NCBI GenBank assembly: GCA_027492035.1
Contig: JAOZFT010000004.1
Coordinates: 49,929-113,928, forward strand
Reading direction: 5' to 3'
Source of the DNA: Thermoproteota archaeon
GTDB taxonomy: Archaea; Korarchaeota; JAOZGF01; JAOZFZ01
Length of the DNA: 64,000 bases
Shown: piece after piece, positions 22,955 through 42,508 of the stretch
Position numbering within the stretch: position 1 is the stretch's first letter
Layout of the letters: every line of letters starts with the position of its first letter
Program-made: the position numbers and the translations under genes
The notes under the pieces: model-generated
The model's input: only the letters and a program-made list of their open reading frames with translations
The model's database searches: none
What the model was told of the DNA's origin: nothing

Positions 22955-22996
22955 AGAAACCTGGATAGAAGGGTTTGAAAAGGTTTAAAGGATGCA

Positions 22997-23407: not shown

Positions 23408-23484
23408 AATTCTTCCTCACATTTTAAGGAACTCTTCCGTGGAGGTGTCTTATGAAAACATGCTATGTTTTTAAACTTAAAAAA

Positions 23485-24549: not shown

Positions 24550-25574
24550 TTCTTCACCGTTTTAACAAATTCCTCTTTCAAACCTGAACCTATAATTACC
24601 CTATACCTACCTGAGCTTGACTTTTCAAGCATTCCTTTAACTATAACCACTTCACCTCTTTTCAAGTAGCTCCTATACAAGCCGATCATAGAGACTATTT
24701 CTTCCACTGTAACATTAGGAGTTCTCCCCTCTAAAAAACATTTTTTTACCTTGTAAATTACTGGCCTGAACATCGACTCCGCAGTGTCAGCAACTTCACA
24801 AGTTACTGTTACAGGATGTAAAGGTTTCCATTCCTCTTCATTTCTTATTTCATTTATTAGCCTTGTAGCGTTTAAAACAAACCTTTTTCCATTGTAGAAT
24901 CCGGTATTCATTCTCCTTTCCTCCACTTCATTCTTTCTTGAAATTTCCAAAACTTCTCTTTTCTCTAGCACCTGTAAAGTTTTAATTACTTTTTCATAGT
25001 TTCTGGAGCCGTAAACAGCTACATCTATATCACTTTGCTCACTATGCATGCCTAAACTTATTGAGCCATGGATGCCGAAAAAATCAATTTTCACTTTTGA
25101 GTAAAACGAGAGGAGATGAATCAAATTTAATGCTTTTTTTTCCAGTTCATCCTTCATTCTCTTACTTAAAAGTTTTTTTAAGCATTCATTTGGGCGGTAT
25201 ACCTCCTTTATTTTGTCACGTAAGGGAGCAATCAACCATTTCTTCAGGTTCAAGTCATAAAAAACGTAACCTGGGAAATGACTCTTCAAGGACTTTATTA
25301 TTTGCGAGTAATTTTCTGGAGAGTAAAGTAAAGCTGGCCTAACCATTTCTACACTTTTAAAAAACCATTTTTGACTAAGCCATTTAAGTTTGAAGTTGTA
25401 AGCCAGTTTTGAAGGGATGTATTTGAGGAAGCTTATTACCCTGTTCCAGGGATGTTTATAGCCGAAAGTGTAAAATATAAAATTGTCCTTTGAAACTATG
25501 ACATCACCATCCCTGAAAATTCCATTTCCCGGCGTGTAAGGTTTTCTATTTTTCATTCCCTCCCCTTCTTTCAT
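24546..25574 (-). CDS. Archaeal nucleotidyltransferase-like protein, copy 3
   Basis: This 342-aa paralogue begins the run. FIFYTFGYKHPWNRVISFLKYIP, GIHGSISLGMHSEQSDIDVAVYG (catalytic GS and DxD), and GEVVIVKGMLEKSSSGRYRVIIGSG correspond to blocks in copies 1 and 2. It follows the ATP-grasp gene after 15 bp and is probably in the same transcript. The three copies differ strongly in sequence, so they are old duplicates rather than a recent amplification. Confidence 0.8.
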   Translation of the reverse strand: MKEGEGMKNRKPYTPGNGIFRDGDVIVSKDNFIFYTFGYKHPWNRVISFLKYIPSKLAYNFKLKWLSQKWFFKSVEMVRPALLYSPENYSQIIKSLKSHFPGYVFYDLNLKKWLIAPLRDKIKEVYRPNECLKKLLSKRMKDELEKKALNLIHLLSFYSKVKIDFFGIHGSISLGMHSEQSDIDVAVYGSRNYEKVIKTLQVLEKREVLEISRKNEVEERRMNTGFYNGKRFVLNATRLINEIRNEEEWKPLHPVTVTCEVADTAESMFRPVIYKVKKCFLEGRTPNVTVEEIVSMIGLYRSYLKRGEVVIVKGMLEKSSSGRYRVIIGSGLKEEFVKTVKK

Positions 25575-27017: not shown

Positions 27018-27452
27018 ATGCCTATTAAAATCAGGGTAGATCATCCAGATAGATGTATGGGCTGCTATAACTGTGTTTTTGCCTGCAGCCGAGAACTGTA
27101 CGGAGTGATTTCTAAAAGATTTTCTGCAATTCAGGTGCACGATTCAAAAACTTCAAATACGTTTCTCATAAGGGTTTGTGTCGGCTGCACCGACCCTGAC
27201 TGCGCCAACGCCTGCCCCTACGAAGCATTGAAACCTCGGCCGGAAGGAGGAGTTGAACTTGTCAACCCTGACAAATGTAAAAAATGTGAAGATAGACCCT
27301 GCATACCAGCATGTCCAGTGAATGCTTTACCATGGGACCCTATCAATAAGAAACCCATAATTTGCACAGAGTGCGGTGAATGTGCCAAATACTGTCCACA
27401 TGAAGTTATTTTTTACGGAGAAGTGATTGAAGCTACACCGTCTCCGATTTAA
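27018..27452 (+). CDS. Multi-cluster ferredoxin, AOR-associated electron carrier subunit
   Basis: This 144-aa protein carries four [4Fe-4S] cysteine sets: CMGCYNCVFAC, CVGCTDPDCANAC, CKKCEDRPCIPAC and CTECGECAKYC. It is of the HycB/YdhY/AorB type. It directly precedes the AOR gene (16 bp) and most likely accepts or gives electrons to the tungstoenzyme. It is cytoplasmic, with no signal. GGTG lies 7 nt upstream of ATG. It is the first gene of a five-gene operon with aor, cooC, a corrinoid protein and the MtmB-like methyltransferase. Confidence 0.9.
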   Translation: MPIKIRVDHPDRCMGCYNCVFACSRELYGVISKRFSAIQVHDSKTSNTFLIRVCVGCTDPDCANACPYEALKPRPEGGVELVNPDKCKKCEDRPCIPACPVNALPWDPINKKPIICTECGECAKYCPHEVIFYGEVIEATPSPI

Positions 27453-27468
27453 AAGGAAGGGAGAAAAA

Positions 27469-29220
27469 GTGGAGAAAGTACTTTTTATAGATCTAACTGA
27501 AAGGAAAGTTTGGAGTGAAGAGAAGGGGGAATTGTTTAAAAAATTCCTAGGAGGATCAGGAGTTGCAATAAATTTGCTTCATGAACTTTGCCCTGAAAAA
27601 GAGGATCCTTTCTCACCTGAGAACCCGATAATTTTCGCTGTAGGGCCCCTGTTAGGGGTTTACCCATCTTGCACAAAAACAATAGCAATGTTTAAATCTC
27701 CTTTAACAGGGAATTTAGGTGAATCACACGCAGGAGGCAGGTTCGGTACAGCTTTAAGATGTGCTGGCTACGGCGCAGTAGTTATAAAGGGAGTTTCAGC
27801 AGAACCTGTTTACTTAGATATTTACGACAATGACAAGGTGTTGTTTAAAAGAGCCGCTTCCTTCCTTGGGCTTCCACCCAGAAGAATAATAGATTATCTG
27901 AAAAGAGAGGATGTGCTGGGTTTAGAGAGTGTAATTGCAACAGGGTTAGCAAGTGAAAAATTTGTCGCGTTCGCAGGGGTAATAGTTGATAAACACTTCT
28001 ATTTTGGAAGATTAGGTTTAGGTACAATTTTTGGAGCAAAGAATTTGAAAGCCATAAGAATAACTTCTGACGGTAAGATTCCGATAAAAAACGTAGATGA
28101 ATACAAGATTTTGTATGATGAAATTTATGAGAAGATAGTTAAAACGGATGCTATGGCTAAATACCATAACTTAGGAACTCCTCAAAATGTTCATTCTTTA
28201 AATGAAATAAGAGGCCTTCCAACAAGAAACTTTCTTTCAGGATATTTTGAAGAAGCTGAAACCATTTCAGGAGAATATTTTGCAGATAACATTTTGTTAC
28301 GTAAAATGCCATGCTCCCACTGCCCAATAGGATGCAAACATGTGGCACTGGTTAAGGAACAATTTGCTGCACAACATGAGCTAGAAGTTCTTGAACTTCC
28401 ATACGACTATGAACCAATTTATTCACTTGGTTCAAACCTTGGAGTAAGTGACACAGTAGGGGTGCTTAAGCTTATTTCAACCTGTGACCTTTATGGCTTG
28501 GACGCCATGATAACAGGCAACTTACTTGCGTGGGTTACTGAAGCATTCATGAGAAATTTAGTGACTGAAAAAGAAACCTTGGGACTGAAACCTAAATGGG
28601 GTTATTACGAAACCTACATAAAAATGATTGAAAACATAGTTAAAATGCCTAACTCTTTCTATGCGAGTCTTGCAATGGGTAAAGTGCCTGTGAAGGAGGG
28701 AGAAAGTTTCTACATGACAATTGGCGGTAACGGAGTAGCAGGTTACCACACAGGCCTAGCCCAAGTTTTAGGTACAGCCATTGGCGCTAGACACTCCCAC
28801 GTAAGCAACGCAGGATACTCTTTAGACCAAAAGTACTTAGGAAAAGAATTACCACCCGAAGAAATAGTTGATACATTAATAACTGAAGAACAGAAGAGAT
28901 GCATACTTGAATCATGTGGAGTGTGTCTATTCGCGAGAAGAGTTTATGATTTAGAACTTATTTCGAAAGCTTTAAATCCTTTAGGCTGGAATTACTCAGC
29001 AGATGAACTCAGAGAAATCGGTAAAGAGATTTATAGGCTGAAGTTTAAGTTTAAGTTCAGGGAAGGGTTCCAATTTGAAACTTTGCACATCCCAGAAAGG
29101 TTCTTTGAAACCCCCTCAGCTAATGGCTTAATAAGTAAAAAGAAATTCTTTAAAGCATTAAATTACGCAGCGAAAAGGATAAAGGAACTAGCTGAAATTC
29201 CAGTGGTTGAAAAGAAATGA
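27469..29220 (+). CDS. aor: Aldehyde:ferredoxin oxidoreductase family protein
   Basis: This 583-aa tungstopterin enzyme of the AOR/FOR family interconverts aldehydes and acids with ferredoxin. The N-terminal domain contains LGGSGVAINLLHE, GNLGESHAGGRFGTALRCAGY and GRLGLGTIFGAKNLKAI. The [4Fe-4S] ligands are CSHCPIGC at about 282-289 and the distal Cys in LESCGVCLF. The track begins at 27427 inside the ferredoxin gene; I prefer GTG 27469, which has GGAAGGGA upstream and restores the normal N-terminus (VEKVLFIDLT). It overlaps cooC by 4 nt. The aldehyde substrate cannot be deduced. Its operon with a corrinoid methyltransferase is unusual. Confidence 0.9.
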   Translation: MEKVLFIDLTERKVWSEEKGELFKKFLGGSGVAINLLHELCPEKEDPFSPENPIIFAVGPLLGVYPSCTKTIAMFKSPLTGNLGESHAGGRFGTALRCAGYGAVVIKGVSAEPVYLDIYDNDKVLFKRAASFLGLPPRRIIDYLKREDVLGLESVIATGLASEKFVAFAGVIVDKHFYFGRLGLGTIFGAKNLKAIRITSDGKIPIKNVDEYKILYDEIYEKIVKTDAMAKYHNLGTPQNVHSLNEIRGLPTRNFLSGYFEEAETISGEYFADNILLRKMPCSHCPIGCKHVALVKEQFAAQHELEVLELPYDYEPIYSLGSNLGVSDTVGVLKLISTCDLYGLDAMITGNLLAWVTEAFMRNLVTEKETLGLKPKWGYYETYIKMIENIVKMPNSFYASLAMGKVPVKEGESFYMTIGGNGVAGYHTGLAQVLGTAIGARHSHVSNAGYSLDQKYLGKELPPEEIVDTLITEEQKRCILESCGVCLFARRVYDLELISKALNPLGWNYSADELREIGKEIYRLKFKFKFREGFQFETLHIPERFFETPSANGLISKKKFFKALNYAAKRIKELAEIPVVEKK

Positions 29221-30014
29221 AAATTTGTATTTCCGGGAAAGGGGGTACAGGAAAAACAACTCTTGCAGGGACTCTTTCACGCTTGTTCGGGAGGGATGGT
29301 TATAAAGTTTTAGCAATAGACGCTGACCCAAACACTACACTAGCTTCAGCACTGGGCATACCGCCTGAAACAGCTGAAAAAATAATACCTATTTCCGAAA
29401 ATAAGGAATTAATCAAGGAAAGAACAGGCACCCAACCAGGAAGTTCATGGGGTGTTTTCTTCAACCTTGTACCTGATGTAAGAGATATAAAGGATAAGTT
29501 CAGTATTCAAGCACCCGACTCAGTATCTTTACTAGTGACTGGAACAATTGAATTCGGTGGAGGAGGCTGCTTCTGCCCAGCAGCTGCTTTACTGAAAACC
29601 CTCCTTAGTTATCTTATAGTGAGGGAGAAGGATGTGGTAATTGTTGACATGGAAGCAGGGCTAGAGCACTTGGGACGGGGAGTAACAAAAGAATTTGATG
29701 TCCTTTTAATCGTAGTAGAACCCAGCCTCAAATCCTTAGAAACAGCCGAGAAGATAAGAAAATTAGCTGAAGATTTATCAATAAAGGAAGTATTTGTTGT
29801 CCCTAATAAGGTCTCCACTAAAGAACAATCAAGAAGAATCAAGGAGTATCTTTCTAACAAGGGATTTGAAGAAATAGGGGAAATACCTTATGACACAAAC
29901 GTGATTGAAGCAGACATGGTTGGTAAAGCTTTACTTGATTACAACCCAAACTCTAAAGCAGTGAAAGCAATAAAGAAAATTTACCAAGGACTTGTTAAAC
30001 TAAATCAACATTAA
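29217..30014 (+). CDS. cooC: CooC-type nickel-insertion ATPase
   Basis: This 265-aa MinD-like ATPase matures nickel carbon monoxide dehydrogenase or ACS. The deviant Walker A is GKGGTGKTT at 7-15, VLAIDADPNTTLA follows, and the CxC metal motif is in GGGGCFCPAAALL (C118, C120). VIVDMEAGLEHLGRG is the Walker B/switch region. The ATG overlaps the AOR stop (ATGA). It is the expected accessory for the CODH/ACS encoded about 10 kb away, but here sits inside the methyltransferase operon, linking that operon to CODH/ACS. Confidence 0.93.
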   Translation: MKICISGKGGTGKTTLAGTLSRLFGRDGYKVLAIDADPNTTLASALGIPPETAEKIIPISENKELIKERTGTQPGSSWGVFFNLVPDVRDIKDKFSIQAPDSVSLLVTGTIEFGGGGCFCPAAALLKTLLSYLIVREKDVVIVDMEAGLEHLGRGVTKEFDVLLIVVEPSLKSLETAEKIRKLAEDLSIKEVFVVPNKVSTKEQSRRIKEYLSNKGFEEIGEIPYDTNVIEADMVGKALLDYNPNSKAVKAIKKIYQGLVKLNQH

Positions 30015-30051: not shown

Positions 30052-30729
30052 GTGCCACCTGACTTGCTGACAGAAATAAAGGAAGCATTAATTTTTGGGA
30101 AATACGATACAGTAGAGAAAAAGGTAAATGAAGCATTGAAAAAGAAAGTTCCACCAATGAAAATCCTAAATGAAGCCTTAATTGAAGGAATGAAAGAAGT
30201 CGGGAGGAAATGGATTGATGGCGAAGTTTTTCTAGCCGACGTAATGATGTCAGCTGAAGCAATGAGGAAGGGAATGAATTTAATTGAGCCATTAATTTCT
30301 AAACCAGGAAAGGAAAGGAAGATTAAGGGCAAAGTGTTAATTGCAACCATTTATACCGACATCCATGACATAGGGAAGAAAATAGTTGCAGCTTTACTGC
30401 AAGCTGAGGGGTACGAAGTAATTGATTTAGGAGTTGATGTCCCACCTTCAAAAATAATTGAGGAGGCTTTAAAGAACAAAGTGGATTTAATTGGTGTTTC
30501 ATGCCTCTTAACAACCTCTATTCTCTACATAAAAGACTTAATTGACTTCCTTTCCACAAGGAAGCTGAGGAATAAATTTATTGTTGCAGTTGGAGGAGCT
30601 GCTTTAACAAAAGATAAATCTGAGGAGATAGGGGCTGATCTCTACGCCGAAACAGCGGAGGAAGCAATTAAAGAAATAAATGAAAAAATTAAAGAGTTTA
30701 AAGCAAGAGGTAAGGAGGGAAATGATTGA
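30052..30729 (+). CDS. Corrinoid protein of a methyltransferase system (MtmC-like)
   Basis: This 225-aa protein carries a corrinoid between a methyltransferase and an acceptor. The N-terminal helical B12-binding-2 domain (about 1-90) contains ALIEGMKEVGRKWIDGEVFLADVMMSAEAM. The Rossmann-like B12 domain follows with TDIHDIGKKIV (DxHxxG; H105 as the lower cobalt ligand), IDLGVDVPPSKII, SCLLTTS and GGAALT. Length equals MtmC/MtbC/MttC. GTG 30052 has GGAGGAGGGG upstream. It overlaps the MtmB-like gene by 8 nt, so the two are almost certainly partners. No RamA-type reactivator is next to it. Confidence 0.92.
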   Translation: MPPDLLTEIKEALIFGKYDTVEKKVNEALKKKVPPMKILNEALIEGMKEVGRKWIDGEVFLADVMMSAEAMRKGMNLIEPLISKPGKERKIKGKVLIATIYTDIHDIGKKIVAALLQAEGYEVIDLGVDVPPSKIIEEALKNKVDLIGVSCLLTTSILYIKDLIDFLSTRKLRNKFIVAVGGAALTKDKSEEIGADLYAETAEEAIKEINEKIKEFKARGKEGND

Positions 30730-32086
30730 CCCCTGGGAGATTATAGGAAGGGGGGAGGAGGGACCCCACATACCTGAAAAAGAATTTGACATGAACCTTT
30801 TCAAAAAACTAGCTTCTTTAGAGAAAGAGTACGAAATAAAATTCAACGGAGAGCCCCTCCTTCAGGATAAACAAATGATAAACTCAATTTATGAAGCAGG
30901 TTTAGAGTTAGCTGTAGAAACAGGTTTCTATTTGCTTGACACACAAAGGAGAATTCTTTTCACAGAGGATGAAATAAAGTATTATTTATCTAAATCCAAG
31001 AAAAAACTAGTTTTAGGCGAAGGGAAAGAAGCTGAAGAATTGGTGAAAAGGGAAATCAATGACAAGAAACCTCCTTTGTTAATAGCAGGAATGGCTGGAA
31101 CCCCTTTACCGGAAAGGGATTTCTTTATTAAAAGCGCCATGTCATACGTTAAAGAAGAGGTGGTGAAGGGTTTAGATCATGGCTCAATAACATCAGTTGA
31201 AGGGAGAGAAGTAAGAACTGGAAGTCCTTTAGAAATTCATGCAACTAGAAGAGAGATAACTTGGTTAAGGGAGGCTTTGCAGAGGGTAGGTAGACCTGGT
31301 TTACATTTACTAGACGGGGAATCAAGCATAACTTCAAAGGGAGTTTTATCTGTGCTTTCACCAAACTATTTAAGAAAAACAGACGCATACTTTGTGCCGG
31401 TGCTAAATGAAATGAAGACAGATTACGTTAGGTTAAGTAAAGCATTAGCTGGAACAGAATACGGTTGTTTAATTGCGAGCTTGGTTGACCCAATTCTTGG
31501 AGGATACTCAAGAGGCCCAGAAGGAACAGCTATTTGTTCAATTGCAGAGTTAATACTGAGCAAAATAATTTATCAAGCCAACTATTTTCTCCTACATCCC
31601 TCAGATATAAGGGTGAAGTCAACAACCACACCTCAGTGTACATGGGTCCTAGGTGCAGTAGGGCAAGCAATAAGTAAGAACACAGACCTTCTTGTTTTTG
31701 CAGATGTTTGGGTTACTTCAGGAGCAGGCACCGAAACTGTTTTCCAAGAAATAGTTCCTAACACCTTAGTGGCTACCTACTCTTCACTGCATTTATTGGG
31801 GCCTGTTACCGCTTGCGGTTTATTACCTAACGGTACAGGTCTTGAGGCAAGATACATGGGGGAAATAGCTGAAACAACAGCAAAGAAACAGCTTAAACCG
31901 GAGATAATTAACGAAGTAGCTTCCCGTTACTTAAATCTCTACATTAACAAGTTATCTTCACCAGATTTAGGAATTAGTTTTAAAGGTCTTTACAACATGG
32001 AGAAAGTGACACCGAGAAAAGAGTATCTGAACACCTTTGTCGCTAACTTTGAAAAGTTTAAGAAAGAAATAGGTATCCACGATTAA
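30722..32086 (+). CDS. MtmB-like methyltransferase without pyrrolysine
   Basis: This 454-aa protein aligns, from memory of Methanosarcina MtmB (458 aa), along its length: NGEPLLQDKQMINSIYEAG, VLGEGKEAEELVKR, GRPGLHLLDGESSITSKG, NEMKTDY, ILGGYSRGPEGTA and LEARYMGEIAETTA. The pyrrolysine position (202 in M. barkeri, GRPGMGVO) corresponds to L197, codon CTA at 31310-31312. There is no in-frame TAG. Residues I recall as lining the MtmB pocket (E259, Q333, Y335) are also not kept. So the fold is kept but substrate or chemistry must differ. ATG 30722 follows AAGGAGGGA; the 14-residue track extension is rejected. Confidence 0.88.
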   Translation: MIDPWEIIGRGEEGPHIPEKEFDMNLFKKLASLEKEYEIKFNGEPLLQDKQMINSIYEAGLELAVETGFYLLDTQRRILFTEDEIKYYLSKSKKKLVLGEGKEAEELVKREINDKKPPLLIAGMAGTPLPERDFFIKSAMSYVKEEVVKGLDHGSITSVEGREVRTGSPLEIHATRREITWLREALQRVGRPGLHLLDGESSITSKGVLSVLSPNYLRKTDAYFVPVLNEMKTDYVRLSKALAGTEYGCLIASLVDPILGGYSRGPEGTAICSIAELILSKIIYQANYFLLHPSDIRVKSTTTPQCTWVLGAVGQAISKNTDLLVFADVWVTSGAGTETVFQEIVPNTLVATYSSLHLLGPVTACGLLPNGTGLEARYMGEIAETTAKKQLKPEIINEVASRYLNLYINKLSSPDLGISFKGLYNMEKVTPRKEYLNTFVANFEKFKKEIGIHD

Positions 32087-32123: not shown

Positions 32124-33494
32124 TCATTGACGTAACCATTTCTTTTCAAGAAACCCTTTGATTTCTCTTGAATCAAAAGGCCCAACCAGGACTTCCCAGC
32201 CGCTAACATCCTCTATTTCTCCACCTAATTTAGCTGCCCTACCTGGAATAATTATTTTCTTATGTTTAACCTTTTCTTCAATTCTGTTTTCTTTAATGAG
32301 TCTAGCTACACTGTCAGGGTTTATTTTATTCCCTGCAACTGAAGTGTTGACACTTAGCCCTCCTGTGTCAACAACAAGCAAGTAAGTTGAAATTCCTTGA
32401 ATTTTTAAGTCATTTGAAACTATGTGGTAGGTTAGAGAGTAGTTTGTAGTCATCATTACGGGAGAGTTTTCGTCAGGAGACCCTATCACGTAAAGTCCTG
32501 GTTTTATTTGTAACGGAATCCTTGGGTCGATGTAGATTGCTTGTCTTAGCAACATTAAAGGAAGAACTGCCCATTTTACGATGTTGGAGAGGATAATTAT
32601 TCCTCCATACCTTAGAAGAAAGGCTGCTGATGCCATTACCTCCCAGTAATCCTTAAAATTGCCATTATTTACCTTGATCAAGTTTGGGAAAACCAAAGTC
32701 GGGTAACCTAGAGTTTTAATTTTCTTCTCAACAGCTCCCCTCCTAATAATTGTTAGTGAACTTATTTCATCCATTAAGTTTTGACCAGGAGGAATTATTA
32801 ATATTTCATTAACTCCGAATTGATTTAATCTGGTAATTAAGGTTTTAACTTCCTCTAGATTGCTTCCATGAACAGCTACGGGGGTTTTAAATTTCTTTGC
32901 AAGCACAGCCATTTGATTCACGTTCATTGACGTAACTGGACATATTAAGGGTTTATCTTCACCCACAAACTCTAAAGCTTTCATTAAAGAGTAGGGAGTA
33001 GTGCTGCAAAGAATTAATGGGAGATTTGTGTGTTGTTTCACTATTTTTAAGGTTTCTACAAATTTTTCAGCGTTACCAGAAACAGACTTCACAGCAAACA
33101 TGTTCAGTTTTAACGTCTGCCCCATTCTCTCAATTCTAAATTCTTCAGCTTCCTTTATTTTTTCAATTATTTCCTCGCTAGACATTCTGTCACTTATTTC
33201 TACTGCGAACAAAGCTTCATTGTAGAATTTCTCTTCATGTCTAAACGCAACTTTCTCTCCCCCTATAACTACTTTGTTTCTTCCAGTACCTATCTCAACT
33301 TTTACAACTGGGGGAGCAGTTTTTGTTAAAAGTGCATCCTTAGCTTCCTCGCTTAAGTAGGGGCATTGTGAAGGGTTTGCCTTCCCTTCAACTATTTTGA
33401 AAGCGAACGCCATACAAGTAGGTACCCCGCATTCTCCACAGTTCTTTTTGGGAAGAAGTTTATAGATGTCGGTAGGACTTATTTTTTTAGCCAT
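32124..33494 (-). CDS. cdhE: CoFeSP large (gamma) subunit, second copy
   Basis: This 456-aa protein is the corrinoid- and [4Fe-4S]-binding gamma subunit that carries the methyl group to ACS. The N-terminal cluster motif is CGECGVPTC followed 16 residues later by another Cys. A TIM-barrel part and a C-terminal corrinoid domain follow (SPDENSPVMMTTNYSLTY, LLVVDTGGLSVNTSVAG, IPGRAAKLGGEIEDVSGW). It is diverged from the cdhE at 34706-36100, mostly in the barrel, with the C-terminus highly alike. I chose ATG 33494 (MAKKIS) since the other copy starts MAKELS at the same point. It is convergent with the methyltransferase operon. Confidence 0.92.
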   Translation of the reverse strand: MAKKISPTDIYKLLPKKNCGECGVPTCMAFAFKIVEGKANPSQCPYLSEEAKDALLTKTAPPVVKVEIGTGRNKVVIGGEKVAFRHEEKFYNEALFAVEISDRMSSEEIIEKIKEAEEFRIERMGQTLKLNMFAVKSVSGNAEKFVETLKIVKQHTNLPLILCSTTPYSLMKALEFVGEDKPLICPVTSMNVNQMAVLAKKFKTPVAVHGSNLEEVKTLITRLNQFGVNEILIIPPGQNLMDEISSLTIIRRGAVEKKIKTLGYPTLVFPNLIKVNNGNFKDYWEVMASAAFLLRYGGIIILSNIVKWAVLPLMLLRQAIYIDPRIPLQIKPGLYVIGSPDENSPVMMTTNYSLTYHIVSNDLKIQGISTYLLVVDTGGLSVNTSVAGNKINPDSVARLIKENRIEEKVKHKKIIIPGRAAKLGGEIEDVSGWEVLVGPFDSREIKGFLEKKWLRQ

Positions 33495-33505
33495 ATTTGC
33501 CGCCT

Positions 33506-34513
33506 TTACCTGGTTTTTAACCACTCCTCCACAGTTATAAACTGCTTAGGTTCATTGAAGAAATTATTAACGAATTCATTTATCAGCTTCGCTGCTTCAG
33601 GGTGTAGGGATGAAGATATGTTTGCTCCAGCCATTATCCCAGTTATTGCCGTTAAAACTTCGAAAGTTATTCCTGTTTTTTCTGTTTCGAGTTTATCTTC
33701 TTCCTGAAGTTCCCTTGCAAGCCAGCTTTCACTTGAAAAAATAATGCTTGGACTTTGAAGGATTTTGTCTCCTCTAAGGGCCCTTATTTTTACTCTTTCA
33801 AGCGTTGAAAAAGTATATTCGATGCCGTAACCTAAAGCCCCCGTGGTCACATCCATAATTATTTCTTTATTTGTTAATCCAAGGTTTAAGAGGGAGGTAT
33901 TAAGTTTAAGTGCTTGGTTTACATCCATGTTTGTTTTTGCAAGTACAGGGTGTTTCTTTTCCAGACAAGCCTTACCTATTTCTTGGAAAGCATTAGTGTA
34001 CACAGGCCCTATTAAACATTTTTCTCCTTCACATATTTCAGCTGATTTCGTCAATATTTCATTGTTTTTCCTGTAATCATCCATTTCAATGATGTCCATT
34101 ACCCCTGTAATTAGGAGGGGGACCTTAACTGCTTGAAGAACTTCCTCAATAACGTTACTTATCTCTTTTTTGAAAGTTTCATTCCTTATAGAGAAGGCAT
34201 CTGTCAATCTTAAGTTAACCATTTCTGCTTTAAATTTATTAACAGCTTCTCTACTCCATTCAACAGGGTTATCTACCAAGTCACCGAAGAAATTAAACAG
34301 GGAACCGGGTAAAGGAGCATGGTAACAATACACTTCGTGAGCTATTCTTGGGGGGTTAGGGTTGATCCCTTCAAAACTGTAGAGAGGTAAGTATTTGTCT
34401 CCCCCTACAGTTACTGAGTAACTTCTAGTTCCCCCTTCAGTTTTTGTGGCCCCAATCTCAACTTCTTTAATTTCGCCCTCATATTTTTCGAAAGAAATGG
34501 GAATACTTGACAT
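33506..34513 (-). CDS. cdhD: CoFeSP small (delta) subunit, second copy, short form
   Basis: This 335-aa protein is the TIM-barrel delta subunit that pairs with CdhE. Family blocks are VEIGATKTEGGTRSYSVTVGG, NPPRIAHEVYC, IIMDVTTGALGYGIEYTFS and MAGANISSSLHPEAA. It starts only about 10-15 residues before the first conserved block, while CdhD1 (36116-37306) has about 65 extra N-terminal residues. The missing segment resembles docking peptides discussed for the 74-aa gene. ATG 34513 is chosen over TTG 34528 because GGTG lies 9 nt before it. The gene is 11 bp upstream of cdhE2, and the pair is separate from cdhD1E1 by about 190 bp. Confidence 0.92.
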   Translation of the reverse strand: MSSIPISFEKYEGEIKEVEIGATKTEGGTRSYSVTVGGDKYLPLYSFEGINPNPPRIAHEVYCYHAPLPGSLFNFFGDLVDNPVEWSREAVNKFKAEMVNLRLTDAFSIRNETFKKEISNVIEEVLQAVKVPLLITGVMDIIEMDDYRKNNEILTKSAEICEGEKCLIGPVYTNAFQEIGKACLEKKHPVLAKTNMDVNQALKLNTSLLNLGLTNKEIIMDVTTGALGYGIEYTFSTLERVKIRALRGDKILQSPSIIFSSESWLARELQEEDKLETEKTGITFEVLTAITGIMAGANISSSLHPEAAKLINEFVNNFFNEPKQFITVEEWLKTR

Positions 34514-34705
34514 TTCAGTTTTCACCAAAAAATTACTTGGGTGAACAGAAACCTCTTTTTCAAATAAGTTTTTCCCTTAAAACAGTTTATTTGTCTCCTT
34601 CTAGAGGTGCAAAGTTCCCTTAGGAAAGGAAACGTGACTTCAAGGATGGGGTTAACACTGGATAATTTCTTTTGTGAGAGAAAAAATGTAGGTGTTAGGA
34701 AAAAA

Positions 34706-36100
34706 TTACTTCCATTTTTCTTGCATAAATTTAGGTATTCCTGAGGAATCTAATGGCCCTACAAGCACTTTCCAACCGCTTTTTTCCTCTATTTCTCCAC
34801 TTAACCTTGAAGCTCTGCCAGGGATCACTATTTTTCTATGTTTCACTTTTTCTTCAATTTTGCTTTCCTTAATTGAATCTGCGACTCTGTCAGCAGTTAA
34901 TTTCCTTCCTGCAACAGCTGAATCAACAGATAACCCTTCTGTATCAACAACTAAGAGGTAGCAATCCAGTTTAGCTGACTGTATATCTGCAGCAACTGTG
35001 TAATAGGTTAAAGCGAAGTTGGTAGTGAATAATACAGGTGAGTTTTCGTTAGGTTGTCCAAACGTCCTTATTCCTGGTTCAACAGCCACAGGTTTCCTTG
35101 GGTCTGTATATATGTTTTCTCTTAGGATAATTTGAGGCAGAAGACTCCAACCTTCCAAGTTATGAACTATTAATGCATCTGCAAACCTCACTATCAACAT
35201 ACCGGCTAAATATGTTTCCTCCCATTTCTTATCCAGTATACGTCCTTCTTGAGTCCAAGCAGTTATGGGAGTGCCTATTAACGGGAAACTAAGTAATTCA
35301 TCATTTTCCTTAAAAGCTGCTCTACGGATCATTGTGAAATTGTTCAGGGTTGCTGAGACTCCATCGCCTGGAAAAGTACCTGGATCTAGAACTAAATCTT
35401 CGATTCCGTACTCTTTCATAGTTTTCACCAATGACTTAAGCAATGTTATATCGTTAGGTGCAAAAATTGTTAAGGGGCAATTATACATTGAAGCTAGTTC
35501 ACCCATTTTGTCCCAGTTATCTTTTGTAGCTGCGTAAATAAGAGGCTTGCTGTTTTTAGCTTCTGACAAACCTGACTTCATGACTTTAGGGTTGAAGGTG
35601 CAAAGGATCATTGGTAAACTTGTGTTTTCAACAACTGTTTTAACTGTTTCCCCGAATTTTTCAGGATCTTCTGTTACTGACCTCACAGCCACCAAGTTTA
35701 GCTTTAATTCTTTGCCTATGTAGCTATAGGAGAAGTTTTCAATTTTCTTAACCCTCTCAATTAATTCGTCTTTAGGCAGGTCATCTGTAACATCTACAGC
35801 TATAGCTGTTGGGTTTATGTAAGTTAATTCATGTCTATACATCACATACTCTCCACCTATTTTCACTTCTTTAGTTGGGCTTTTAATTACTACCTCTTTC
35901 AGAGTAGGCTTTATTAAATCCCAAATTTTTTCTCGGTTTCTTCTGTATTTACTTGTTAAAAGAGGTTTACAGGCGTCAAGTCCAATTTCCATTGCAACAA
36001 GTTTAGTTGCAAAAGCCATACAGTTTTCTAGGCCACATTCTTTACAGTTAGTTTTGGGAAGGAGTTTATAGATGTCTAGTGGACTTAATTCTTTAGCCAA
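34706..36100 (-). CDS. cdhE: CoFeSP large (gamma) subunit, first copy
   Basis: This 464-aa gamma subunit has the N-terminal [4Fe-4S] motif CKECGLENC plus a Cys 16 residues on. KEVKIGGEYVMYRHE follows, and the corrinoid domain end is VLFTTNFALTYYTVA, LLVVDTEGLSVDSAVAG and IPGRASRLSGEIEEKSGW. It uses a TTG start behind AGGTGA. It follows cdhD1 after 15 bp and so belongs to the cdhC-small-cdhD-cdhE operon. It is the likely housekeeping CoFeSP of the archaeal CODH/ACS complex, taking methyl groups from methyl-tetrahydropterin. Confidence 0.94.
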   Translation of the reverse strand: MAKELSPLDIYKLLPKTNCKECGLENCMAFATKLVAMEIGLDACKPLLTSKYRRNREKIWDLIKPTLKEVVIKSPTKEVKIGGEYVMYRHELTYINPTAIAVDVTDDLPKDELIERVKKIENFSYSYIGKELKLNLVAVRSVTEDPEKFGETVKTVVENTSLPMILCTFNPKVMKSGLSEAKNSKPLIYAATKDNWDKMGELASMYNCPLTIFAPNDITLLKSLVKTMKEYGIEDLVLDPGTFPGDGVSATLNNFTMIRRAAFKENDELLSFPLIGTPITAWTQEGRILDKKWEETYLAGMLIVRFADALIVHNLEGWSLLPQIILRENIYTDPRKPVAVEPGIRTFGQPNENSPVLFTTNFALTYYTVAADIQSAKLDCYLLVVDTEGLSVDSAVAGRKLTADRVADSIKESKIEEKVKHRKIVIPGRASRLSGEIEEKSGWKVLVGPLDSSGIPKFMQEKWK

Positions 36101-36115
36101 GTTGCGTCACCTTTT

Positions 36116-37306
36116 TCAGAATTTTTTAGTAACCCAGTTAATAACTTCCTGAGGTTTTACAGGCTTTTGCTCCACCAGCCTCTGAATTACCGACTTCACT
36201 GTTTCAACTGCTTTGGGATGCATCATCATGAATAAGTCAACTCCAGCTAAAAGCAGAGTTAATGCAGTAACCACTTCCCATATTGGTCCTCTTAGCTCCC
36301 TAGGTTCCCATTCTGGTCCTAGTTTTATCCATGCTTCTCTAGCAGCCCAAGCATTGGTTGTGCCTGAGGATAATGGGTGCTGCAGCTCCTCGTCGCCCAT
36401 TAACGCAGCAAGCCTCGTCCTTTCCATTATAGTGAATGCATAATCTAAACCATAACCTAAAGCTGCAGTGGTTGTATCCATTATTATGTTTTCTTTGGGT
36501 AAGTACTCGTAGAGTTTACGGTCAAGTTCTTTCTGCTGCTGCATATCCATTGAAGTAAAGGCAATTACGACATGGCCGTGCTCCTTAATAGCTTTGGCGG
36601 CTTTTTCCAGATCCATGTCCAAGGTAACTGAGTTGATAAGTATTCTTTCTCCTTCAGCAGCCTCAGCCACTTTCTCAAAAACCTGTAAATCCTTTACAGG
36701 GTCTCCGCAACCCCCTACTGTCAAGGGTACTTTAACTGCTTGAAGAACTTCCTCCACTGTTTTCGCAGCCTCACTTGGAGAAGTGTTTTCACGTAAGGGG
36801 TCTATGCTTTCCATGTGAAGGTTTATCATTTCAGCACCGAATTTGTTGACTGCCTTTTTAGCCCATTCTGCAGGATCATCTAACACATCTCTCCAATTAT
36901 TTTTCACTGCTTTAGCCATGGGTATCTTGGTGTCGAAAACATCCAGTGAAACAACAGGGGGGTGGGGAGTAGGTGATTCAAAAGTGTAAAATGCAGGAGA
37001 AGTTTCTCCTCCCACCACTACGGTTTTATCCCTAGTACCTCCTTCCTTTTTAGTGGCTCCGATTTTTACTTCAACAACTCTTCCAGGGTAAATTTGAATA
37101 GGGGGGGTGAATTCAGTCTTTAAAATTTCAGTTGGTTTTTTGATTTGTGGAACAGCGGCAGGGTAGGGAATAAACCTTTGAGGCACTGGTTCAAACTCCA
37201 ACTCTGAAAATTCAGCTTCAATGTTTTCTAGGATCATTTCAGAATTGTTTAATTTTTTAATTAGGTCAAGTATGGAGTTGAAGAAAGAATTAGCTTCCTC
37301 GCTCAA
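36116..37306 (-). CDS. cdhD: CoFeSP small (delta) subunit, first copy, long form
   Basis: This 396-aa delta subunit has the family barrel (VEVKIGATKKEGGTRDKTVVVGG, PHPPVVSLDVFDT, IIMDTTTAALGYGLDYAFT, LLAGVDLFMMMHPKAV). It also has an N-terminal extension of about 65 residues with LIKKLNNSEMILENIEAEF and a proline-rich linker. That extension is shared in part with the 74-aa gene next door and absent from CdhD2, so it is probably a docking segment to the ACS/CODH core. TTG start with AGAGGTAG upstream. Gap to the 74-aa gene is 6 bp. Confidence 0.94.
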   Translation of the reverse strand: MSEEANSFFNSILDLIKKLNNSEMILENIEAEFSELEFEPVPQRFIPYPAAVPQIKKPTEILKTEFTPPIQIYPGRVVEVKIGATKKEGGTRDKTVVVGGETSPAFYTFESPTPHPPVVSLDVFDTKIPMAKAVKNNWRDVLDDPAEWAKKAVNKFGAEMINLHMESIDPLRENTSPSEAAKTVEEVLQAVKVPLTVGGCGDPVKDLQVFEKVAEAAEGERILINSVTLDMDLEKAAKAIKEHGHVVIAFTSMDMQQQKELDRKLYEYLPKENIIMDTTTAALGYGLDYAFTIMERTRLAALMGDEELQHPLSSGTTNAWAAREAWIKLGPEWEPRELRGPIWEVVTALTLLLAGVDLFMMMHPKAVETVKSVIQRLVEQKPVKPQEVINWVTKKF

Positions 37307-37312
37307 TTAAGT

Positions 37313-37537
37313 CTACCTCTTTTCCTCTTTAGTTTTATGCAAAGTTAGTTTTTCAATACTGAGTTTAACCCCCTTAATTTTTTGAACTGATCCTTTAGAG
37401 GAGGGCTTGATGTGCATTTCATCAAAAGTTAAGTTTATGTTTTCAAGAATGGTTTCTGATTTCTCTATCTCTTCAATTAATTCTACAACTGTTTTAAGTA
37501 AAGGTTTTGGTTCCCTTCTTTCACTCAAGTTTTTCAC
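37313..37537 (-). CDS. 74-aa CODH/ACS-associated small protein of unknown function
   Basis: This small gene sits between cdhC (2-bp gap) and cdhD1 (6-bp gap), with GTG start and AAGGAGA upstream. Its N-terminal half (VVELIEEIEKSETILENINLTFDEM) matches the CdhD1 N-terminal extension (LIKKLNNSEMILENIEAEF). Its C-terminal half (KIKGVKLSIEKLTLHK) matches the CdhC tail (SIKGAKINIEKLLLKK). It therefore looks like a tether made of the docking segments of two subunits. I know no named family. A role in assembling ACS with CoFeSP is inferred from this. Confidence 0.7.
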   Translation of the reverse strand: MKNLSERREPKPLLKTVVELIEEIEKSETILENINLTFDEMHIKPSSKGSVQKIKGVKLSIEKLTLHKTKEEKR

Positions 37538-37539
37538 CT

Positions 37540-38955
37540 TTATCTCCTTTTCCTTTTCTTTTCTACTTTTTTAAGAAGCAATTTCTCGATGTTGATTTTT
37601 GCACCTTTAATGCTGATTTTAAAGTTTCCAATTGGTAGCGGTAAAGGCATTCCTTGGACAGGTACTCCAGCTGCAGGTACTGCTTCGATTTCTTCTTCTT
37701 CCTCTTCAGCTATAGCTTCTTCTTCCAATCCCATTTCTTTCCACCTTTCAACAACCGGGTGATTGACTTTTTCCAGGAACTCTTTTAATTCATCTATGTT
37801 CTGCACATCTTTCTCTGTAGCTATTTTATCAACTACATCTTTTGGGATGAAATCTTTTACTCTTTCTTTAAAGTCTGTAGGCATCCAAACAACTCTGTGC
37901 CATCCTCCATCAACCTGCAAAAATTTGGGGGATCTTGTGTATTCTATGGAAATGCCGTGGAAACCGTCTACTTGTCTACCTCCAGCTGTTGCATCCGCCA
38001 TTGTCCCAAACCTTAAACCATTGACAGCGTTACCTTTGAAGTCCCTGTGAATTAGACCCATACCGTCCACTTCAGGGATATAGAAAGCTATGCCTTCAAA
38101 ACATCCACAGGATGTGTGGGGGTATCCAAAAGCAGTGTAAAGCCATACTCTTTCAATAGCACCCAAGGACTTCTCCTTTGCAGCTTTATTGGCTCCAGTG
38201 TACTCTCCCTTCCAAGGATCTAAACATTCACCTTTAGGAATTGCGAAAATTGGTCCCTTTGGGTCTATTTTTGCAGCAGCACGTCCATCATACCAACTTA
38301 TTGCTCCACAATTGGAATAACGTTGGGGAGTGATTATGCAGACATGGGTAGGAGCAAAGGATTGGCAGAGGAGGCAACCGTAGAATTCATCCACTTCTTC
38401 ATCCTTTAACCCTCTAGCTTTAGCGTCTCTGGCTTCATAGACTTTCAATGCCATATTGTATTGTTCCTCTACCTTTTTTGGGTCGGTTAAGAAAGTTACT
38501 TGTATTTTTTCAATTATGGGTAATTCTGACTTATATAATCTGATCATAACTTTCCCTACAAGTTCAAAAGTGTTTAATCCTTTTTTGAAAGAGTTTTTAC
38601 TTACTCTGCACCAGATGTCGTATCTCTGGTTTAAGTGCATGAATCCCTCTATGTAATTTGTGAATTCATGTATTCTTCTTTCAATGACGCCTTCTAGATC
38701 CTCTTCCAGTTCCTTTCCTGCCACTTCCACAAGAATACCGAACGGATACGTTTTTCCCTCTTCTAAATCTTTCAAGTCAGGCCCTACAATGCTTATTTTA
38801 CCATCCTCAACTTCTCCTGGTTTCTTCACTCTTACGAGTTCAAACTTTGTTTTTACCTTCGGCCCCCCTAGTTCAACATACATTTCGTTTTTTCTTATTC
38901 TTTCCCCTTCATAAACTATTCCTACGTCAACAGGAATGTCTTGAAACATGGACAT
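37540..38955 (-). CDS. cdhC: Acetyl-CoA synthase beta subunit, archaeal CODH/ACS
   Basis: This 471-aa enzyme joins a methyl group from CoFeSP, CO from CODH and CoA to form acetyl-CoA at the nickel A-cluster. The cysteine-rich A-cluster region is visible: CLLCQSFAPTHVC, RYSNCGAISWYDGR, and GYPHTSCGCFEG (the Cys-Gly-Cys distal nickel site). VDGFHGISIEYTRSPKFLQ and GGWHRVVWMP are family blocks. As in methanogen CdhC, the bacterial AcsB N-terminal CODH-binding domain is missing. An acidic/proline linker ends in the KGAKINIEKL docking-like tail. It is the first gene of the minus-strand cdh operon. Confidence 0.96.
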   Translation of the reverse strand: MSMFQDIPVDVGIVYEGERIRKNEMYVELGGPKVKTKFELVRVKKPGEVEDGKISIVGPDLKDLEEGKTYPFGILVEVAGKELEEDLEGVIERRIHEFTNYIEGFMHLNQRYDIWCRVSKNSFKKGLNTFELVGKVMIRLYKSELPIIEKIQVTFLTDPKKVEEQYNMALKVYEARDAKARGLKDEEVDEFYGCLLCQSFAPTHVCIITPQRYSNCGAISWYDGRAAAKIDPKGPIFAIPKGECLDPWKGEYTGANKAAKEKSLGAIERVWLYTAFGYPHTSCGCFEGIAFYIPEVDGMGLIHRDFKGNAVNGLRFGTMADATAGGRQVDGFHGISIEYTRSPKFLQVDGGWHRVVWMPTDFKERVKDFIPKDVVDKIATEKDVQNIDELKEFLEKVNHPVVERWKEMGLEEEAIAEEEEEEIEAVPAAGVPVQGMPLPLPIGNFKISIKGAKINIEKLLLKKVEKKRKRR

Positions 38956-39635: not shown

Positions 39636-41981
39636 TTGTCAAAAAAGGACTTAAGAGTGAAAATAGGAGAAGTTAAAACAGAAAAAGGCACAATGAAAGA
39701 TTTAGAAATTTCAATTGGGAGAATATTTGAGGAGGAGTGGGAGGAACCGGTTGGCCCAACCCCCTTTCCATCAATCAAGGACTTAAGGAACTGGGACTTC
39801 AAACTCTTAAAACGTTACAAACCATTTTACATGCCTTTCTGCGATTTATGCTGTTTTTGCACCTACGGAAAATGTGACTTGACAAAAAATAAAAGGGGAG
39901 CTTGTGGAATCGACATGGCTGGCCAACAAGCCAGGATTGTTCTGTTAGCCTGTGCAATAGGTGCAGCTACACATTGTGGACATGCCAGACATTTAGTAGA
40001 ACACTTGATTGAGGAATATGGAAGAGATACACCTCTATCAATGGGTGAAAACGTTGAGATAGAGGCTCCACACGTAAGGCTTGTTTGTGGAATAAGGCCA
40101 AGGAAAATAAAAGATTTAGAAATAGCACTTGATTACGTGGAAAATCAAGTAACCCATTTGCTTTCTGCCATACATACTGGCCAAGAAGGGCACTGGATGG
40201 ATTTTGAATCAAAAGTTTTCCATGCAGGCATGATTGACCACGTCGCAATGGAGATAGCTGACATCGCCCAAATAGCAGTTTACAACTTCCCTAAAGCCGA
40301 CCCAGATGCTCCGTTGGTTGAGTTAGGTGCTGGTGTTGTAGACTCTAAGAAACCAACAATACTTGTGGTGGGGCATAACGTCCCTCCAGCCATAGCTATC
40401 GCAGATTACTTGACAAAAGAAAATCTTGTAGGCAGCGTTGAAGTTGCTGGCTTATGCTGCACTGCTATAGATTTGACAAGGTACTCTTCATTTGCAAAAA
40501 TAATTGGTCCAATGAGTTGGACTTTAAGGTTTATAAGAAGCGGATTAGCAGATGTAATAGTAGTGGATGAGCAGTGTGTAAGAACAAACTTAGTTGAAGA
40601 GGCCAAGAAAATCGGGGCGCTTTTCATTGCTACTTCTGAAAAAAACTGTCAGGGCCTGCCTAACAGAACAAATGATCCAGCGGATCAAATCGTGGATGAT
40701 TTAGTGAGTGGAAAACAACCTGGAGTTTTAATTTTTGACACTGAAAAAGTTGGGGAAGTAGCTGTTAAAGCAGCTTTAGCTGTAGCACCTAAGAGGAAGA
40801 AGAAAAGATCTCTTTTAACACCCAAAGAGATCATTGAGGGATCAAAGAAATGCATTAAATGCCAAGAATGCATAAAGGCATGCCCAGATAATTTACCAGT
40901 GATGTATGCAGTGAATGATGCCGCTCGAGGAGATCTTTCTAAGTTAGCTGAACTTTATGAGAAATGTATCGGCTGCGCCAGATGTGAAAGTGCATGCAGC
41001 GTGAATTTGCCGCTTCACACTTACATCATTTCAGCTGCAGAGAAAAAAATGACGGAAGAAAAGTTTAAGATAAGAGCCGGAAGGGGACCTATTAGCGACA
41101 TAGAAATAAGGGAAGTTGGTCAACCTATCGTTTTCGGTGAAATACCTGGAGTTGTTGCCTTTGTAGGTTGTCCAAACTACGCAAATGGTGGAAAAGAAAT
41201 TCCTGAAATGGTTGATGAATTTGCAAAGAGAAGATACATAATTACTCTTTCAGGATGCGCAGCCATGACAGCTGGAATGTTCAAAGATGAAGAAGGGAAG
41301 ACAGTGTATGAAAAGTATCACGGCAGATTTGACGCTGGAGGAGTTGTAAACGTGGGTTCATGTGTTTCAAACCCACACATTTCTGGGGCGGCAATAAAGA
41401 TAGCTAGAATATTCGCTAAAAGGAACATAAGAGCAAACTATGAAGAAATTGCTGACTATGTTTACAACCGTATAGGTGCAGTTGGTGTTGCATGGGGCGC
41501 TATGTCGCAAAAAGCAGCTTCAATAGCTTCAGGTTTTTGGAGACTAGGGGTTCCAGTAATCGTTGGCCCCCATGGTTCGAAATATAGAAGAATGCTGCTT
41601 GGAAGGAAAGACAGGGATGAGGACTGGTATGTTTGGGATGCAAGGACAGGTAAAAAAGTATATGTTGGACCTGCACCGGAACACCTGTTCTACACAGCTG
41701 AAACAAAGGAGGAAGCCATGGTTATGATAGCTAAACTTTGCATAAGACCTAACGATACAACTAAGGGGAGAGCTATAAAACTGACCCACTACATAGATCT
41801 TTACAAGAAATTTTACGGTAAGTTACCTGATGACATACATCTTTACGTCAGAACAAAAGCAGATATTCCATTAACCATGAAAGATGAAATACTCGCATAT
41901 TTAGAAGCTAAAGGATGGAAAGAAAAAGCAACGCCTGACCCGACACTTCTACCTCGATTAATAAGGAAAAAGGAGGGATGA
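39636..41981 (+). CDS. cdhA: CO dehydrogenase alpha subunit, archaeal CODH/ACS
   Basis: This 781-aa nickel CODH reduces CO2 to CO (or the reverse). The B/D-cluster region near residues 69-90 reads CDLCCFCTYGKCDLTKNKRGAC. Family blocks include GHARHLVEHLIEEYG, VVGHNVPPAIAIADYL, and C-cluster-associated CCTAIDLTRY. A ferredoxin domain inserted in the middle (CIKCQECIKAC, CIGCARCESAC) is specific to archaeal CdhA. FVGCPNYANGGKEIP, VVNVGSCVSNPH and GVAWGAMSQKAASI follow. The start is TTG 39636, with GAGGCGATT upstream. It overlaps cdhB by 4 nt. Length matches methanogen CdhA. Confidence 0.96.
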   Translation: MSKKDLRVKIGEVKTEKGTMKDLEISIGRIFEEEWEEPVGPTPFPSIKDLRNWDFKLLKRYKPFYMPFCDLCCFCTYGKCDLTKNKRGACGIDMAGQQARIVLLACAIGAATHCGHARHLVEHLIEEYGRDTPLSMGENVEIEAPHVRLVCGIRPRKIKDLEIALDYVENQVTHLLSAIHTGQEGHWMDFESKVFHAGMIDHVAMEIADIAQIAVYNFPKADPDAPLVELGAGVVDSKKPTILVVGHNVPPAIAIADYLTKENLVGSVEVAGLCCTAIDLTRYSSFAKIIGPMSWTLRFIRSGLADVIVVDEQCVRTNLVEEAKKIGALFIATSEKNCQGLPNRTNDPADQIVDDLVSGKQPGVLIFDTEKVGEVAVKAALAVAPKRKKKRSLLTPKEIIEGSKKCIKCQECIKACPDNLPVMYAVNDAARGDLSKLAELYEKCIGCARCESACSVNLPLHTYIISAAEKKMTEEKFKIRAGRGPISDIEIREVGQPIVFGEIPGVVAFVGCPNYANGGKEIPEMVDEFAKRRYIITLSGCAAMTAGMFKDEEGKTVYEKYHGRFDAGGVVNVGSCVSNPHISGAAIKIARIFAKRNIRANYEEIADYVYNRIGAVGVAWGAMSQKAASIASGFWRLGVPVIVGPHGSKYRRMLLGRKDRDEDWYVWDARTGKKVYVGPAPEHLFYTAETKEEAMVMIAKLCIRPNDTTKGRAIKLTHYIDLYKKFYGKLPDDIHLYVRTKADIPLTMKDEILAYLEAKGWKEKATPDPTLLPRLIRKKEG

Positions 41982-42508
41982 TGAAAATGAAACTCGAACC
42001 CTACCAAAAAGCTGAAATACCTGGACCGTCGAAAGCTTTCGCAATAAGCAATGCGAAACTGCTACTGGCTAAAATAAAGAAAGCGAAGAAGCCTTTAATG
42101 ATTATTGGCCATAAATCTTTAGAGTTAGAAATAAATGGCAAATTACTTATAGACTACTTGGTTGAAATAGCGAAAAAATACAGGATACCAGTTATAACTT
42201 CTACTCCCACCTACCTAGAAATTAAGAGGAGGGGGTATGAAACAGTGTACCCAATGAATTTAATAGAGGCTGCCAGCATGGTTAAGGACCCTTCATGGAC
42301 AGGGTTTGACGGAAAAGGAAATTACGACTTAGTTTTCATTGCAGGATTCCCTTACTATTATGAATGGTTGACCTTGTCAGGTTTAAAACATTTCTCGTCA
42401 ATTGAAACAATTAGTTTAGACCCTTACTATCAACCACATGCCTCATGGTCTTTTCCAACAATGAAGAAGGAAGAATGGGCCAAAATCATAAATGAACTGC
42501 TGGAATAA
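41978..42508 (+). CDS. cdhB: CODH/ACS epsilon subunit
   Basis: This 176-aa protein is the archaeal-only epsilon subunit that forms a tight complex with CdhA and may help with electron or FAD handling. Blocks include IPGPSKAFAISNAKLLLAKIKKAKKPLMIIGH, IPVITSTPTYLEI, and DLVFIAGFPYYYEWLTLSGLKHF. The start overlaps the cdhA stop; GGAGGG directly precedes ATG 41978, so ATG 41981 or 41987 may be the real start. It ends the cdhAB operon. Confidence 0.93.
   Translation: MMKMKLEPYQKAEIPGPSKAFAISNAKLLLAKIKKAKKPLMIIGHKSLELEINGKLLIDYLVEIAKKYRIPVITSTPTYLEIKRRGYETVYPMNLIEAASMVKDPSWTGFDGKGNYDLVFIAGFPYYYEWLTLSGLKHFSSIETISLDPYYQPHASWSFPTMKKEEWAKIINELLE

Follow-up and report, generated by a model that had tools for sequence, protein, structure and literature searches.

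Why would an archaeon with a single acetyl-CoA synthase encode two corrinoid iron-sulfur proteins (CoFeSPs), and what might the second one do? The question arises from a 64,000-nt stretch of DNA (the window; G000:C9:49929-113928), to whose positions all coordinates refer, in the draft genome of an archaeon, here called G000 (1.87 Mb, completeness 93%). On the minus strand, the genes are transcribed in the order cdhC, a 74-aa gene, cdhD1, cdhE1, cdhD2, and cdhE2, and cdhA and cdhB run in the opposite direction (39636-42508). Five closely packed plus-strand genes form an operon that converges on cdhE2, with 38 bp between mtmB and cdhE2 (Table 1). The whole genome contains one match to CdhC, of 471 aa, and PF03599 occurs in exactly four of its genes, namely two D and two E.

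Table 1. Features of the CODH/ACS locus and of the operon that converges on it, in positions of the window
Feature	Positions	Strand	Details
Polyferredoxin, convergent operon gene 1	27018..27452	+	Orthologue adjoins CdhDE2 in G001
Aldehyde ferredoxin oxidoreductase (AOR)	27427..29220	+	PDB 1aor 7e-64
CooC-type ATPase, putative nickel-insertion factor	29217..30014	+	CooC genes recur in CODH/ACS clusters
MtmC-type corrinoid protein	30052..30729	+	B12-binding domains; TIGR02370 195.8 bits, just below cut-off
MtmB homologue without pyrrolysine	30680..32086	+	PF05369 8.3e-93; uninterrupted frame
cdhE2, large subunit of second CoFeSP	32124..33524	-	466 aa from GTG; PF03599 1.6e-102, PF04060 (FeS) 3.4e-15
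CdhE2 [4Fe-4S] motif C-x2-C-x4-C-x16-C	33363..33440	-	C29, C32, C37, C54
cdhD2, small subunit of second CoFeSP, without N-terminal extension	33506..34528	-	PF03599 2.3e-38
cdhE1, canonical archaeal-type large subunit	34706..36100	-	PF03599 6.5e-135; groups with phylum relatives in tree
cdhD1, canonical archaeal-type small subunit with N-terminal extension	36116..37306	-	396 aa; TIGR00381 463.7 bits (cut-off 252.9)
Acidic tail motif MILENIEAEFSELEFEP in CdhD1 extension	37187..37237	-	Residues 24-40
74-aa gene	37313..37537	-	CdhD-type segment residues 29-45, CdhC-tail-type segment residues 53-68
cdhC, archaeal-type acetyl-CoA synthase	37540..38955	-	PF03598 7.3e-67
Basic tail motif FKISIKGAKINIEKLLLKK at CdhC C-terminus	37567..37623	-	Residues 445-463
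cdhA, CODH alpha subunit	39636..41981	+	
CdhA N-tail KGTMKDLEISIGRIFEE, resembling tail motif	39687-39737		
cdhB, CODH epsilon subunit	41978..42508	+	Homologues in sister clusters

Is the second pair complete? Its genes encode together a small and a large subunit with PF03599 (CdhD) domains, and comparison with PDB entries matches CdhE2 to CoFeSP large subunits (1.5e-104) and CdhD2 to AcsD (2.2e-51). Translated from TTG, CdhD2 is 340 aa long, and the ATG at 34513 chosen in the preliminary description of this DNA would give 335 aa; cdhE2 has an alternative ATG start at 33494, which matches the start of CdhE1. As that description had stated, both CdhE proteins keep the four-cysteine cluster motif at the N-terminus in the same pattern (C19, C22, C27, and C44 in CdhE1), and the C-terminal corrinoid domain of CdhE2 appears conserved. 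In the two genomes that have the pair, CdhE2 retains 35-38 of 41 near-universal CdhE residues, all four cluster cysteines included, and CdhD2 keeps 26-28 of the 35 near-universal residues of CdhD. Both CdhD2 proteins share changes in the RGxxWE region, e.g., R339 and W343F (CdhD1 numbering), and because of these departures the interactions of CdhD2 may differ. At the level of sequence, CdhD2/CdhE2 is confirmed as a complete second CoFeSP, and the retention of both genes in two related genera argues for a function. A RACo-type activator with Fer2, linker, middle, and ASKHA domains is encoded once in G000, away from this locus (C20). The AlphaFold models of CdhD2 (pLDDT 50) and of the 74-aa protein (helices at pLDDT 68) were too poor to use.

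How widespread is this arrangement? The second genome, G001, is a sister from the same family (record JAOZFL010000065.1), where the locus reads cdhC-cdhD1-cdhE1-cooC-cdhD2-cdhE2 and converges on genes for AOR and ferredoxin. Its D2/E2 proteins are 47% / 53% identical to those of G000, its CdhD2 again has no extension, and no 74-aa gene lies between its cdhC and cdhD1. Among 393 archaeal genomes searched, only G001, beside G000, has two full-length CdhE proteins; likewise, among the matches listed in a PF03599 search of 297 relatives, two CdhE occurred in G000 and G001 only. Scanning a contig database for relatives of D2/E2 returned the sister record alone, a plasmid collection gave one clostridial sequence, and two viral-contig scans gave no match. 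The portions of PMC10667645 and PMC10469681 that were at hand do not mention a second CoFeSP.

The two small subunits differ at their N-termini: 79 residues precede the first core motif in CdhD1, and 22 in CdhD2. The extension ascribed to CdhD1 in the preliminary description is real, with about 57 residues instead of the 65 given there, and it is not an annotation artefact, as it aligns with that of the G001 CdhD1 (LVLENVVIEADELELEP vs MILENIEAEFSELEFEP) and archaeal-type clusters as a rule encode a long CdhD. Could CdhD2 have an extension hidden upstream? It had been said to have none, and stop codons bear this out: the open frame continues for just 16 codons above the start of the gene, and more in-frame stops occur further upstream, so that a longer CdhD2 is excluded. 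For the sister CdhD2, the frame leaves no more than 4 codons to spare upstream. An acidic motif in an N-terminal CdhD extension, as would be expected of a complex-bound archaeal CoFeSP, is lacking in CdhD2, and a motif scan found the tail motif on neither CdhD2 nor CdhE2. The 74-aa protein, which has no match in Pfam or NCBIfam, does share the segment that had been noticed at the CdhD1 N-terminus (Smith-Waterman score 73, reached by 0/2000 shuffles), and it also resembles the CdhC tail (score 55, reached by 5/2000 shuffles).

What could such an extension be for? In the archaeal-type clusters that were read, the acidic motif of the CdhD N-terminus has the form xELENVxIEAEELxLxL, and a basic counterpart, FKNAKIYAEKVIIKRK, ends either the archaeal-type CdhC or a separate protein of 58-74 aa; CdhA N-termini bear a third, similar form. 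In a jackknifed HMM scan, the acidic motif reached at least 3 bits in 29 of 31 long CdhDs. The two below this value are those of G035 and CdhD1 of G000, whose motif is divergent (-0.6 bits when left out of the model), yet aligns with that of the sister. All 13 short CdhDs scored below 0 bits: both D2s, 5 bacterial-type archaeal and 4 bacterial proteins, and those of G040 and G062. The basic motif occurs in 25/25 archaeal-type clusters with the CdhC region read, most of which were in the training set of its model, and in 0/6 bacterial-type clusters. When CdhC is without the basic motif, as in G299, G300, and G189, a separate carrier is predicted, and it was found in each case: a gene for 58-74 aa directly after cdhC, whose product had been left out of model building. 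Column shuffles of the motif profiles reached the observed similarity in 0/200 cases for acidic-basic, 0/200 for basic-CdhA, and 3/200 for acidic-CdhA, numbers that are flattered because the tail segments were picked by eye. Small motif-bearing ORFs also lie beside cdhD in G017 and G299.

Docking, the role proposed for the acidic CdhD extension in the preliminary description, draws its support from three contrasts that agree. The archaeal genomes with a bacterial-type AcsB (G346, G216, G330, G338, and G069) have CdhDs of 303-317 aa with no extension. G040 and G062, draft genomes of 92% completeness, keep cdhD-cdhE-RACo with no match to CdhC and no acidic segment, whereas their relative G299 has both CdhC and the acidic segment. 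The third contrast is that of CdhD2 with CdhD1. The acidic motif goes with archaeal-type CdhC and is absent in bacterial-type clusters, in G040/G062, and in CdhD2; a docking role is well supported by this comparison of sequences. As for structures, a 2024 cryo-EM study of a methanogen enzyme left a ~75-residue C-terminal extension of ACS unresolved and its function unknown, and a structure of ACS in complex with CoFeSP was still lacking in 2024 (PMC11474084). Work on an ethane oxidiser described a flexible, conserved N-terminus of archaeal CdhA, unassigned and suspected to hold other subunits (PMC11493965).

Where does the pair come from? In trees of 43 CdhE and 44 CdhD sequences, with only four bacterial sequences, the D2/E2 proteins of G000 and G001 group together (100/100) and are excluded from the archaeal-type clade, where a complex-bound archaeal CoFeSP would be expected (99/96 for E2, 100/99 for D2); their position is between archaeal-type and bacterial-type sequences. 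Constraining E2 with the E1 of both genomes costs 72.8 log units (AU p=3.5e-5), and constraining D2 with D1 costs 38.0 (AU p=0.020), which rejects a recent duplication of CdhD1/E1. Trees of the N- and C-terminal halves of CdhE agree in setting E2 apart from E1. The tests likewise reject a grouping with the proteins of Moorella and Carboxydothermus (p=0.001 for E, p=0.007 for D); that of D2 with bt338, with four bacterial sequences sampled, is not (AU p=0.26). By these trees, D2/E2 is not a copy of D1/E1 and has a separate ancestry. Nor does it appear bacterial, as far as the sequences sampled here go: with bacteria thinly represented, nothing supports a transfer from one of the bacterial groups included, and the pair would represent either an old lineage or a transfer from an unsampled group, two origins that four bacterial sequences are too few to distinguish.

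How does this pair compare with known systems? It resembles the archaeal ACDS gamma-delta CoFeSP (CdhE/CdhD, e.g., Methanosarcina) in domains, cluster cysteines, D-E gene order, and location in a CODH/ACS cluster, and differs from it in the tail-less CdhD2, in its place outside the archaeal-type clade, and in that G000 also has a canonical pair. With the bacterial CoFeSP (AcsC/AcsD, e.g., Moorella, Carboxydothermus) it shares a short, tail-less small subunit, a CPYLSEEA...APPV stretch in CdhE2, and an expected free state. Bacterial-type small subunits are expected to be about 305-320 aa long with no extension, and CdhD2, also unextended, has a slightly longer core at 335-340 aa; a RACo-type reductive activator, as expected beside a bacterial-type CoFeSP, is present in G000. 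Unlike the bacterial system, D2/E2 does not appear to group with AcsC/AcsD in the trees with their four bacterial sequences, and G000 shows neither AcsE nor an A1-domain AcsB: its only ACS is the 471-aa CdhC, and its Pterin_bind matches are a DHPS-like protein (the best candidate for an AcsE-type methyltransferase, rejected as such), a 527-aa protein, and CdhD1. The earlier likening of D2/E2 to bacterial CoFeSP holds for the architecture only. A further comparison is with CdhD-CdhE-RACo of G040/G062, where CdhD is also tail-less and the CoFeSP presumably free, but there it is the sole CoFeSP and derives, in the tree, from the tailed archaeal clade by loss.

What, then, would be the division of labor? 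In archaeal CODH/ACS, CoFeSP would be held by short complementary tails, an acidic one at the CdhD N-terminus and a basic one that either ends CdhC or sits on a separate small protein, with a related tail on CdhA. CdhD2 is without this tag, and if the tag binds, as we infer, the second CoFeSP would stay free: soluble and mobile, it would serve as a methyl shuttle between methyltransferases and the only CdhC, its likeliest acceptor and presumed partner, as free CoFeSP does in bacteria. The donor might be the pterin pool via MtrH, or one of the corrinoid proteins that belong to the methyltransferase systems; G000 has one full-length MtrH match, near two MttB homologues, and three MtmB homologues with no stop codon at the pyrrolysine position. 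That CdhD2/E2 is a mobile methyl carrier seems likely. The joint reading, in which the second CoFeSP is catalytically competent, stems from an old separate lineage, lacks the tag, and serves the single CdhC, may in our judgment equally well prove right or wrong. More tentatively, archaeal CODH/ACS may be assembled by a tail code, in which a motif of ~15 residues is acidic in CdhD, basic in CdhC or in a small protein that can detach, and takes a third form in CdhA; D2/E2 would then be a CoFeSP without the code, from a deep third lineage distinct from both the bacterial and the archaeal type, so that one cell runs a tethered and a mobile carrier on one ACS. We consider this wider idea possible, with the balance somewhat against it.

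The co-occurring tail motifs offer a simple hypothesis for the tethering of the methyl carrier in archaea, testable in well-studied methanogens, and CdhD2/E2 provides a natural tag-free control inside one genome. The pair may also offer a lead for understanding how acetyl-CoA synthesis might receive its methyl groups in archaea that have many methyltransferases but in which methyl-CoM reductase is not detected. Marine Korarchaeia described in one report have the Wood-Ljungdahl pathway, MtrH, several methyltransferases, and no Mcr (PMC10667645); the resemblance of G000 to them is a lead only.

Must CdhC be the acceptor? A free D2/E2 might instead serve a core methionine synthase or another methyltransferase. 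CoFeSPs without an ACS seem to exist, given that G040 and G062 have CdhD-CdhE beside a RACo gene with CdhC undetected, and CdhD2 departs from otherwise universal CdhD residues. A methionine synthase is a live rival because Price et al. predicted CoFeSP as the methyl donor for MesB and MesC (PMC7857596) and because the search for Meth_synt_2 (MetE-type), which found nothing in G000 and, in G001, just a partial match, misses MesC (the M. acetivorans control was silent). Those search results nevertheless count against such an acceptor, as does the position of cdhDE2 inside the CODH/ACS cluster in both genomes, and we regard it as rather unlikely.

Might D2/E2 be dedicated to the adjacent MtmB/MtmC, with quaternary-amine-type methyl groups passing to MtmC, CdhE2, and finally CdhC in a methylotrophic synthesis of acetyl-CoA? 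The proximity of the convergent cdhE2 and mtmB would fit, as would the finding that McrA has no match in G000. The MtmB homologue, with Leu at the position aligned with Pyl202 (alignment to 1l2q), is of the same non-pyrrolysine kind as the MtqB of the Methanococcoides MtqB/MtqC pair, and MtqB demethylates tetramethylammonium and choline (PMC13044021); the link of mtmC-mtmB to CdhD2/E2 is hypothetical. The preliminary description had overlooked this MtmB, the MtmC-type corrinoid protein, and the CooC-type ATPase of the operon. MtmBC is a weak clue, and was rejected as an obligate partner, because the G001 locus has CdhDE2 without it, and the MtmBs of G001 are only about 33% identical to that of the operon. 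The two gene pairs lie on opposite strands, MtrH of G000 could instead pass methyl groups to pterin, and direct transfer from the corrinoid of MtmC to that of CdhE2 would be unusual, all of which makes this dedicated route improbable. AOR is no better clue: with its ferredoxin it was rejected as a dedicated partner because members of its subfamily are common across the phylum where CdhDE2 is absent.

Another question is whether D2/E2 sits inside the CODH/ACS complex after all, fixed there through other contacts or with the 74-aa protein as an adaptor. This protein bears both CdhD-type and CdhC-type segments, and the small ORFs beside cdhD in G017 and G299 would suit such a role, but G001 has CdhDE2 with no 74-aa gene between cdhC and cdhD1 and the tail motif is on neither subunit, so we give this arrangement little credence. 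Hardly credible is a recent, decaying copy of D1/E1: D2 evolves faster than D1, and cdhE2 and cdhE1 share 80% identity over their first 30 codons, third positions too, but the AU tests and the half trees speak against a duplication at the family level, the cysteines and most conserved residues are retained across two genera, and gene conversion over a short tract would fit the likeness of the 5' ends.

The motifs proposed to act in docking, acidic in the N-terminal tail of CdhD and basic in the C-terminal tail of CdhC, are also found on small separate genes. At three loci where CdhC itself is missing the basic motif, a gene 3′ of cdhC encodes a product of 58-67 aa that has it, and at one of them (L044) there is an additional 74-aa gene with a related end. 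Tiny ORFs with the acidic motif adjoin cdhD at two loci, and their position matches that of the window's 74-aa gene. A RACo-type activator of G278 has an acidic-type motif, FRIEGFRIEGDELDIEI, as its C-terminal end (a weak match, E = 0.04), as if this protein might dock in the same way.

Features described in this part
Feature	Locus	Position	Strand
Basic-motif gene	L139	5245-5421	+
Basic-motif gene	L140	12296-12499	-
Basic-motif gene	L044	4985-5188	+
Acidic-motif ORF, 42 aa	L013	2664-2792	-
Acidic-motif ORF, 33 aa	L139	6203-6304	+
RACo-type activator, G278	L147	1342-3303	+
cdhE2, first 30 codons	window	33435-33524	
cdhE1, first 30 codons	window	36011-36100	
CdhD-CdhE-RACo, G040	L031	2765-6688	-
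CdhD-CdhE-RACo, G062	L096	7257-11289	-
MtmB homologue	window	30680-32086	
MtmB homologue	L083	9670-11052	
MtmB homologue	L084	17181-18566	
MtrH, MttB homologue, corrinoid protein	L084	3860-7013	-
Nucleotidyltransferase-domain proteins	window	21920-25574	-
NikR-type regulator	window	22997-23407	

A short gene-conversion tract is likely at the 5′ ends of cdhE1 and cdhE2, because their first 30 codons share 80% DNA identity, third positions included, versus about 30-57% third-position identity elsewhere.

CoFeSP genes also adjoin RACo in G040 and G062; no CdhC is detectable in either genome, and their CoFeSP apparently works without acetyl-CoA synthase. Bacterial-type AcsB-CdhD-CdhE clusters occur in archaeal genomes at L134, L135, L136, L137 and L138.

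As for methyltransferases, a single genome holds three non-pyrrolysine MtmB homologues, every one adjoining an MtmC-type corrinoid protein gene and one with amino-acid/amine-type ABC-transporter genes close by. The adjoining genes of L084 for MtrH, an MttB homologue and a corrinoid protein probably form a methyl-to-pterin module. Elsewhere in the window, the NikR-type nickel regulator lies amid genes for three diverged nucleotidyltransferase-domain proteins (342-354 aa) inside 4 kb.
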